Shown: positions 14,987-20,061 of the stretch, piece by piece
Layout: the number at the start of each line of letters is the position of its first letter
How positions within the stretch are numbered: the first letter of the stretch is position 1
Assembly: GCA_023139775.1 (NCBI GenBank)
Contig: JAGLMY010000159.1
Span: 1-41,333 of the forward strand
Origin: a bacterium
Lineage (GTDB): Bacteria; Oederibacteriota; JAAXVQ01; JAUVAV01
DNA: 41,333 nucleotides
Direction: 5' to 3'
Translations under genes and position numbers: made by a program
Notes under the pieces: generated by a model
Databases searched by the model: none
Seen by the model: only the letters and a program-made list of their open reading frames with translations
What the model was told of the DNA's origin: nothing

Positions 14987-15795
14987 GTCTCTTGCTGGAA
15001 GCCTTTCAATATGGATTCGTACACCGGGCCTTGCTGGCCGGCGCGGTCATTGCTGTGTCCTGTGCCTGTTTGGGTATATTCCTGGTCTTGCGCAAATTAT
15101 CCTTGATTGGTGAAGGTCTGGCGCATTTTTCCTTTGCCACCATTGGACTGGGGTTGCTGCTCAATATTTATCCTATATATGTCACTATTCCATTGGCTGT
15201 GCTGGCATCCTTGGGGATTTTATATCTATCAGAGAATACCAATTTTTATGGGGATGCCGCCATTGGTCTGGTTTCCGCCATTGGCGTGGCAGCCGGTGTT
15301 CTTATGGCCAGCCTGAGCGGTGGTTTTAATGTGGATTTGTTCAGCTATCTGTTTGGGGATATCCTGGCCATTACACCCACAGAAGCGGTGAGCGCTGTTT
15401 TGCTTTCCGTGGTGATTATCGTGCTGGTTTTGCTTTTTTATCATGAGCTGTTTGCCATTACCTTTGATGAGGAATATGCCCGCGTGTTGGGCATCAAGAC
15501 CCGCCGGGTCAACCGCATATTGGTCATGCTCTCCGCGGTGACGATTGTGCTGGGTATTAAAGTGGTGGGGATCATGCTGGTATCCAGTTTGATCATTTTT
15601 CCGTCCATCACAGCATTGCAAATCAGCCGCGCCTTCAGAACCGCGCTTATTTTGTCTGTTGGCATAGCCCTGGTCTCCGTGGTGGCAGGTATTTTATTGG
15701 CCTTTGTGCTGAATGTGCCGGCCGGCGCCATGATTGTAGTTCTGAATTTTATATTTTTTATCGCAGCGTATATCGTACGTATCTTTAAACCGTAG
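14983..15795 (+). CDS. znuB: Zinc/manganese ABC transporter permease
   Basis: This is an ABC-3 family permease of 270 residues with about eight hydrophobic segments. The N-terminal RALLAGAVIAVSCACLGIFLVLR and the GEGLAHFSFATIGLG loop are family features (typically SHLAHG-like in ZnuB). The frame stays open upstream to 14899, but the ATG at 14983 has AGGAGG ten bases before it and overlaps the znuC stop. The stop codon TAG is part of the first GTAGGGGC unit of the repeat cluster that follows, so the original end of this gene may have been altered by repeat insertion. Confidence 0.9.
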   Translation: MSLLLEAFQYGFVHRALLAGAVIAVSCACLGIFLVLRKLSLIGEGLAHFSFATIGLGLLLNIYPIYVTIPLAVLASLGILYLSENTNFYGDAAIGLVSAIGVAAGVLMASLSGGFNVDLFSYLFGDILAITPTEAVSAVLLSVVIIVLVLLFYHELFAITFDEEYARVLGIKTRRVNRILVMLSAVTIVLGIKVVGIMLVSSLIIFPSITALQISRAFRTALILSVGIALVSVVAGILLAFVLNVPAGAMIVVLNFIFFIAAYIVRIFKP

Positions 15796-16043
15796 GGGCG
15801 GATCCATGTATCCGCCCTCGTAGGGGCGGATCCATGTATCCGCCCTCGTAGGGGTGAACCTTGTGTTCGCCCTCGTAGGGGCGAACCTTGTGTTCGCCCG
15901 GTAGGGGCGGGTTCTGAACCGAAGGGAATCCCATGTTCAGAATAATTTATCCGGTCGGGGAAACCCGCCCTGGGTTGTTATATTGTAGGGGCGCATTGCA
16001 TGCGCCCGTGACAATTGTAGGGGCAAACCTTGTGTTCGCCCTC
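15792..16043. repeat. Cluster of seven GTAGGGGC palindromic units
   Basis: Units start at 15792, 15820, 15848, 15875, 15901, 15985 and 16017. The first four are head-to-tail with no spacer (28, 28, 27 and 26 bp) and have the form GTAGGGGCG-arm-loop-arm-CGCCC. The fifth has long nested arms (GGGCGGGTTCTGAAC with GTTCAG and AACCCGCCC). Arms vary in sequence but stay self-complementary, which indicates selection on structure. Confidence 0.92.
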
Positions 16044-16277
16044 GGAGAATTATTCCACGTAATCGCCCGGTTAGGGATAAAGTATATGTACTTTGAATTA
16101 TCTGGAACATTGATAGAGGGGTTTACCATATGTAGGGGCACAAGACGCCTCTGCTGGAGGGGGATCGTATGGGACTTCTTGCGGTCGTGCCATGCAGTCC
16201 CGGAAGTGCCTTGGTCATTTTTTTAAGGAGCTAATTTGGACAAGAATATTCTAAGTATATACATTAGGAGGCAGTTC
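15796..16277. other. Repeat-filled spacer between znuB and a lipoprotein gene
   Basis: The first 250 bp are the palindrome cluster. A further half unit (GTAGGGGCACAAG) lies near 16132. The remaining 140 bp hold no recognised gene, and the frames open across the repeats are not believable proteins. TAGGAGG at 16265-16271 serves the next ATG. Confidence 0.6.
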
Positions 16278-19485: not shown

Positions 19486-19513
19486 GTAGGGGCACGGCAT
19501 GCCGTGCCCCTAC
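19486..19513. repeat. Perfect GTAGGGGC palindrome beside the RAYT fragment
   Basis: GTAGGGGCACGGCA is followed directly by its reverse complement TGCCGTGCCCCTAC. The same GTAGGGGCACGGCAT left arm recurs inside the RAYT fragment at 19833. Confidence 0.95.
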
Positions 19514-19583
19514 AGAAATATAAAAAAAAATATGAAAGGATTTCCGGAAAAATCTGTCTCATAAATTGAAAGGGGACAGAGGT

Positions 19584-19898
19584 ATGAAATCCAACCGTCA
19601 ATCCGCTCGCCTGCCAAAATACAATTATTCCTCACCCGGAGCATATTTCATTACTATTTGTACCAAAGACAGGGTGTGTCTGTTTGGGGAGATAATAAAT
19701 GATGAAATGGCGTTGAATGCATATGGGGGAATTGTGCGTAAATGTTGGATGGAGATTTCCGTACATTTTCCGGATGTCACAATAGATGAGATGTGTACCA
19801 TGCCGAATCATATGCATAGGATTATCAACATTGTAGGGGCACGGCATCCGACTTCGCTGAGGCAAAGTCGGACAAGCATCGTTGCCCCTACTGAATAA
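19584..19898 (+). pseudogene. Truncated REP-associated tyrosine transposase (RAYT)
   Basis: The frame shows the N-terminal half of a Y1/IS200-like RAYT: YFITICTKDRVCLFGEI and the HUH motif in MPNHMH (H76, H78). Family members usually read MPNHxHGI; here the Gly is Arg. Immediately after INI the sequence runs into a GTAGGGGC palindrome (19833-19891), is translated through it, and stops. The helix carrying the catalytic tyrosine and the C-terminal domain are missing, so it is inactive. RAYTs are single-copy enzymes associated with REP palindromes. The ATG at 19584 follows a weak GGGGACAGAGG. Confidence 0.85.
19833..19891. repeat. Nested GTAGGGGC palindrome inside the RAYT frame
   Basis: The outer arms GTAGGGGCA... 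and ...TTGCCCCTAC enclose an inner inverted repeat TCCGACTT/AAGTCGGA. It forms the last 20 or so codons of the truncated RAYT frame. Confidence 0.9.
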
Positions 19899-19908
19899 AT
19901 AATAATTA

Positions 19909-19937
19909 TTGACATTTCACCTATAGTTTAGTATCTT
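19909..19937 (+). promoter_or_regulatory. Candidate promoter of the mbh hydrogenase operon
   Basis: A perfect TTGACA (19909-19914) with a 17-base spacer precedes TATCTT (19932-19937). It lies just after the RAYT fragment and about 125 bp ahead of mbhA. The gap 19899-20061 holds nothing else recognisable. Confidence 0.5.
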
Positions 19938-20061
19938 ACCGCGGTGATTTGAGTACCAGATCTGCTAGACAACCCTGTTTTGAACCCCTCTTTTTTAGGT
20001 GTGGTAGTCTATTCCGGTTGTTCGAAGATCTCGTAAAACATTGTCTTTAAAGGAAAATCCA

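Follow-up and report, generated by a model that had tools for sequence, protein, structure and literature searches.

An N-terminal RAYT remnant that ends in an in-gene REP palindrome, and similar palindromes inside its intact relatives

The window, i.e. the whole stretch of 41,333 nucleotides that was analysed, corresponds to contig C67 in a draft genome of 3.59 Mb. RAYTs (TnpA-REPs) are transposase-like enzymes that travel together with short palindromes in the DNA. On the forward strand of the window, an open frame (19566/19584-19898) encodes the N-terminal half of such an enzyme, with the peptide MKSNRQSARLPKYNYSSPGAYFITICT...MPNHMHRIINI. The following features were found at this locus:

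19486-19513, no strand assigned: perfect 28-bp double-foot REP GTAGGGGCACGGCATGCCGTGCCCCTAC in the 5′ flank of the remnant (inverted repeat; fold; genome copies)
19584-19832, forward strand: N-terminal half of a RAYT (TnpA-REP subclass 2.4-like), reaching five codons beyond the HUH motif (identity to the C173 RAYT; partial Pfam Y1_Tnp match; alignment A1)
19809-19817, forward strand: HUH motif His-Met-His (HMH) (sequence; aligned with intact homologues in A1)
19833-19891, no strand assigned: 59-bp double-foot bulged REP within the RAYT frame, peptide VGARHPTSLRQSRTSIVAP (fold; dispersed family with a 58-bp consensus)
19892-19898, forward strand: end of the shortened frame, TGAATAA, with the stop TAA at 19896-19898 (reading frame)

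The 28-bp palindrome begins 98 bp before the ATG of the remnant, while the 59-bp element starts five codons after the HUH motif and forms a hairpin with internal bulges, i.e. an imperfect palindrome. Both start with GTAG and end with CTAC and are thus of the double-foot type. The frame reaches its stop 5 nt beyond the 59-bp element, and the next gene, which we take to encode an mnhE-like antiporter subunit, starts at about position 20041. As for flanking REPs, the 5′ one is present and a 3′ one is absent as such, the other REP being the one within the gene. The resulting layout, REP - N-half - REP, adjoins the promoter region of the neighbouring antiporter operon. A promoter-like TTGACA-17-TATCTT sequence was also seen at 19909-19937, 18 bp past the 59-bp element and before the antiporter genes; it would be met by chance at about the same rate.

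The remnant is a single copy in its genome, where its best match is the intact RAYT of contig C173 (53% amino-acid identity, 84 codons). The Pfam profile Y1_Tnp matched it at positions 9-60 of 121 with 15.4 bits, which is below the curated cut-off of 23; the HUH motif of this domain type is present and has the form NHMH. Downstream of the remnant no homology to a catalytic Tyr block of the WQRNYYEHIIRN type was detected within the window, and the locus is therefore a remnant and not a functional RAYT. These data confirm what an earlier note had read from this DNA, namely a truncated RAYT whose frame passes through MPNHMH into a palindrome without reaching the catalytic Tyr, and a perfect palindrome 98 bp upstream of its ATG. 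Moreover, the remnant deviates at two columns that are at least 90% conserved, a D being replaced by N and the G after the HUH motif by R, and both changes look like decay at near-invariant positions. The 84-codon frame without stops and the double-foot REPs at both ends would also suit a functional non-autonomous unit of the form REP - N-half - REP, or a HUH-only peptide that regulates full RAYTs. We consider this highly improbable, as the unit occurs once in the genome with nothing closer than the C173 match, the near-invariant G after the HUH motif is gone, and the lost half includes the Tyr as well as the WQ...R region, which has been linked to GTAG guide recognition (PMC6006769).

Folding of the DNA gave -17 kcal/mol for the 59-bp element (z -4.6 against shuffles) and -14.4 for the 28-mer (z -6.4). 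In the window, 21 GTAGGGGC sites were counted where 0.6 were expected, and genome-wide there were 594 compared to 230 for the reversed control. The 28-mer has 22 copies in the genome when up to 3 mismatches are allowed (reversed control pattern: 0), and palindromes of the form GTAGGGGC..GCCCCTAC occur 75 times (control: 2). As all these counts exceed the expectation or the controls, neither palindrome at the locus is a product of chance.

The same genome contains four intact RAYTs with a Tyr block, on contigs C173, C32, C17 and C234. They carry the motifs NHFH, NHLH or NHIH, then WQ or WH, and YIVENP, YILQNP or YIINNP. All four have GTAGGGGC feet upstream, inside the ORF and downstream. Within the four ORFs and 500 bp on each side, 21 feet were found compared to 1.10 expected (Poisson P 5e-20), and the flanks alone, outside the coding part, still held 14 compared to 0.66. 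At three Y1 genes of other classes (C311, C199 and C349) no GTAGGGGC feet were present. In this one genome, a high REP density thus goes with RAYTs of this class, and Y1 transposases of other classes do not show it. The tie of GTAGGGGC units to this family, for which the earlier note had suggested a search for an intact RAYT flanked by them, is supported. Across 59 genomes, at least five such palindromes were present in 8 of the 10 genomes that have this RAYT class and in 4 of the 49 that lack it (Fisher P 9e-6, with the class assigned by us from the loci and the relatedness of the genomes ignored). Exceptions were G004, which has RAYTs without such short palindromes, and G006 and G011, which have the palindromes without a RAYT match. 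The link between GTAGGGGC and these RAYTs is strong, as an association. In two further contigs, C218 (L205) and C107 (L206), the sequence breaks off at an identical position within a RAYT gene, behind GTAGGGGC elements, and a recent amplification of the RAYT at these contig ends was considered; it was rejected since the first part is just 86% identical over 207 bp.

The 59-bp element belongs to a family whose copies are dispersed over the genome and number about 19, the one in the window included. The other near-full-length copies, about 18, show 84-92% identity, and the consensus is 58 bp long (GTAGGGGCACGGCATCCGACTTCGCTAAAGCGATGTCGGACAAGCATCGTGCCCCTAC). Compared to most copies, which have CGTGCCCC, the window copy contains an additional T (CGTTGCCCC), and it differs at other positions as well. 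An origin of the element as a hybrid of two REPs was rejected, because it matches the dispersed family over its full length. No RAYT homology was found within 500 bp of the other copies that were sampled. Several copies stand in frame inside host genes, where long open frames read through them. The copy on C77 (L166) lies in the middle of a radical-SAM N-terminal domain (PF08497, E 1.5e-109), those on C42 (L167) and C343 (L174) occupy the same place in two related proteins with open frames, and the copy on C224 (L171) likewise lies within a long open frame. In the C343 and C224 copies both feet are altered together (GTAAGGGC...GCCCTTAC), while the stem is kept.

We then compared the locus with homologues that were picked by their N-terminal block alone, which gave 79 named loci from many phyla, including 63 distinct intact genes. 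An exact GTAGGGGC or GCCCCTAC foot lay between the HUH motif and the WQ/Tyr block in 50 of the 63. The HUH-to-Tyr linkers contained 89 feet in 14.3 kb, compared to a single one in an equal total length of N-domain. Forward feet in the linker fell into phase 0 (29) and phase 1 (11), and never into phase 2; the two occupied phases are those that keep the TAG within GTAG from being read as a stop. Inserts of 28 bp and of other lengths that are not multiples of three stand in frame in intact homologues, and the exact 28-mer of the window was also found inside RAYT frames in records from Nitrospira, Nitrosomonas (a frame with a later frameshift) and Desulfobulbaceae. Homologues in other phyla are likewise both flanked and penetrated by GTAGGGGC palindromes, and the intact relative L070 has three REPs, one in the 5′ flank, one in the gene and one in the 3′ flank. 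At seven loci (L034, L065, L095, L118, L120, L128 and L142) the RAYT ends on a TAG stop codon that is part of the GTAG foot of a downstream REP. Because linker feet stand in frame in most intact homologues, occupy only the phases without a stop and include the 28-mer itself, a palindrome of this type at this place is the normal state of the RAYT family and is harmless in the relatives. Since the homologues were chosen regardless of REPs, this lends independent support to the in-frame REPs published for subclass 2.4.

The earlier note had proposed that a palindrome may have killed its own mobiliser. On this reading, insertion of the 59-bp element would have shifted the frame, and decay and deletion of the Tyr half would have followed. 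Neither the 59-bp copy, with its extra T, nor the 58-bp consensus is a multiple of three, and the stop follows only 5 nt past the element, which speaks for such an event. However, inserts that are not multiples of three stand in frame in the intact homologues, with in-frame feet being a published hallmark of subclass 2.4 (PMC6006769), and the 58-bp family itself is read through in other genes, among them the radical-SAM gene. Since the sequence downstream of the remnant is missing, its phase cannot be read there. The killing of the gene by its palindrome is not supported, and we regard it as unlikely. The note had itself named a palindrome that is a normal part of homologous RAYTs as evidence against its proposal, and this is what the intact homologues have. 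An appealing story is thereby corrected, as the in-gene palindrome is the ordinary condition of this RAYT class and not what killed the gene.

Our preferred explanation, to which we give a probability of about 0.8, is that the remnant is what is left of a decayed REPtron of subclass 2.4 after a deletion, located at the REP within the gene or immediately behind it, had removed the Tyr half and any 3′ REP. The starting state would have been a RAYT of this subclass with a double-foot GTAG REP in the 5′ flank and a second one in a tolerant loop between HUH and the Tyr helix. Such an insert would have been tolerated, as intact relatives read in frame straight through REPs of this kind. A deletion that began at this second REP or directly behind it would then have taken the Tyr half together with any 3′ REP and left REP - N-half - REP beside the promoter region of the antiporter operon. 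In a layout like that of L070, one deletion from the in-gene REP to the downstream REP would suffice to produce the arrangement of the window. As to the cause we can only guess at REP-REP recombination or slippage, which seems likeliest, cutting by the RAYT at REP feet, or an ordinary deletion. What the data show is the anatomy of the remnant, its family, the absence of its Tyr half and the harmlessness of in-gene REPs in the relatives; we infer that the REP was already in place when the Tyr half went and that a deletion removed it. The right junction of the remnant shows no diagnostic trace, and the searched set, which contains no genome of the same genus, yielded no orthologue that is intact at this site. 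A close mnhE was present in G002 and G004 only. In G002 a response-regulator gene without a REP lies upstream of it, the G004 contig begins about 110 bp upstream of mnhE, and the intergenic sequences of both are too divergent for alignment.

The evidence against this order of events comes from the 58-bp family, as all its other sampled copies lie away (>500 bp) from RAYT homology. An unrelated deletion may accordingly have truncated the gene first, with a member of this genome-wide family inserting later at or near the scar. The element sits, however, five codons past the HUH motif, which is the usual zone of in-gene REPs in intact relatives, and we hold this second order to be improbable, though slightly less so than a killing insertion. 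Returning to a deletion after the in-gene REP, the Tyr half has been lost just behind such a REP in two more copies, L066 (G002, same family) and L127 (a deltaproteobacterial MAG), alongside about 67 intact ones. A wider search of the phylum (45 genomes) gave no further clear cases of truncation, and no published account of such losses at in-gene REPs turned up in a literature search. The variability of the linker prevents an exact placement of the break, and three cases are too few to prove a hot spot. That RAYTs of subclass 2.4 break recurrently at their in-gene REPs, with recombination, slippage or RAYT cutting between the in-gene REP and one downstream removing the Tyr half, and that this leaves REP - N-half - REP scars and acts as a built-in self-inactivation switch of the mobiliser, is a speculative idea that we think is probably wrong. 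If they were recurrent deletion points, they would offer the elements a simple way to limit their own enzyme.

The window contains a second RAYT remnant at 1249-1490 on the reverse strand, which consists of the C-terminal half (WQKSYYDHIIRK...YIRNNP) without the N-terminal half. A perfect double-foot palindrome, GTAGGGAACGGTCGCGACCGTTCCCTAC, lies in frame within it at 1437-1464, and the similar intact RAYT of contig C124 has a GTAGGGAATGGTC palindrome at the same place. An inversion could have separated the two remnants as halves of one gene; the geometry fits one end in the in-gene palindrome, and the C-terminal half also begins near a double-foot REP. But the pieces overlap, as the H-x-x-I-I-x-I-V segment after the HUH motif is present in both, their REP types differ (GTAGGGGC and GTAGGGAAC), and the C-terminal half resembles the C124 RAYT, including its GTAGGGAA REP. 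The overlap and the different REP types largely exclude the inversion, and we rejected it as the least likely of all the explanations considered. Elsewhere in the window, at 15792-16139, single-foot GTAGGGGCG...CGCCC units follow each other head to tail in one orientation, after an ORF that ends at 15795.

Several known systems resemble this locus. REPtrons, in which a RAYT is flanked by GTAG REPs (Nunvar et al. 2010, PMC2817692; Di Nocera et al. 2013, PMC3733652), share with it the pairing of a RAYT with GTAG-tagged palindromes and the scattering of REPs over the genome, also inside genes, whereas at the remnant just two REPs are left, one in the 5′ flank and one within the gene, and the 3′ flank has none. 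In-frame intragenic palindromes are known as the RPEs of Rickettsia and the intragenic GTAG REPs of Opitutus terrae (as reported in PMC3733652). The 58-bp family is similarly read in frame through the radical-SAM gene and other long ORFs; the foot of the Rickettsia RPEs, however, is CGTC and not GTAG, and here one copy lies in a RAYT. The Tyr block of the intact C173 RAYT aligns with that of the E. coli TnpA-REP (PDB 4ER8; IWQPRFWEHAIRN), although weakly (E 0.052); the E. coli protein belongs to subclass 2.2 and lacks an in-gene REP, and the window remnant lacks the Tyr block. In TnpA-REP subclass 2.4, double-foot REPs occur in the flanks and in frame within the gene, generally between HuH and Y, which is a unique feature of this subclass (Quentin et al. 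2018, PMC6006769), and its motifs are NH[IFV]H, WQ and YIxNNP (Table 1 in PMC6006769). The locus agrees with it in its NHxH HUH motif, its N-terminal RRSIRL..YDYS block and its GTAG double-foot REPs, of which one lies in the flank and the other follows shortly after the HUH motif and is read through, probably as an in-frame insertion. WQ and YIxNNP would have stood in the half that is lost, and intact relatives carry WQ and a C-terminal motif of the YI-x-NNP type. It differs in having lost the Tyr half and near-invariant residues and in lacking the 3′ flanking REP. This class of RAYT is known, and the remnant is an ordinary representative of it that has decayed.
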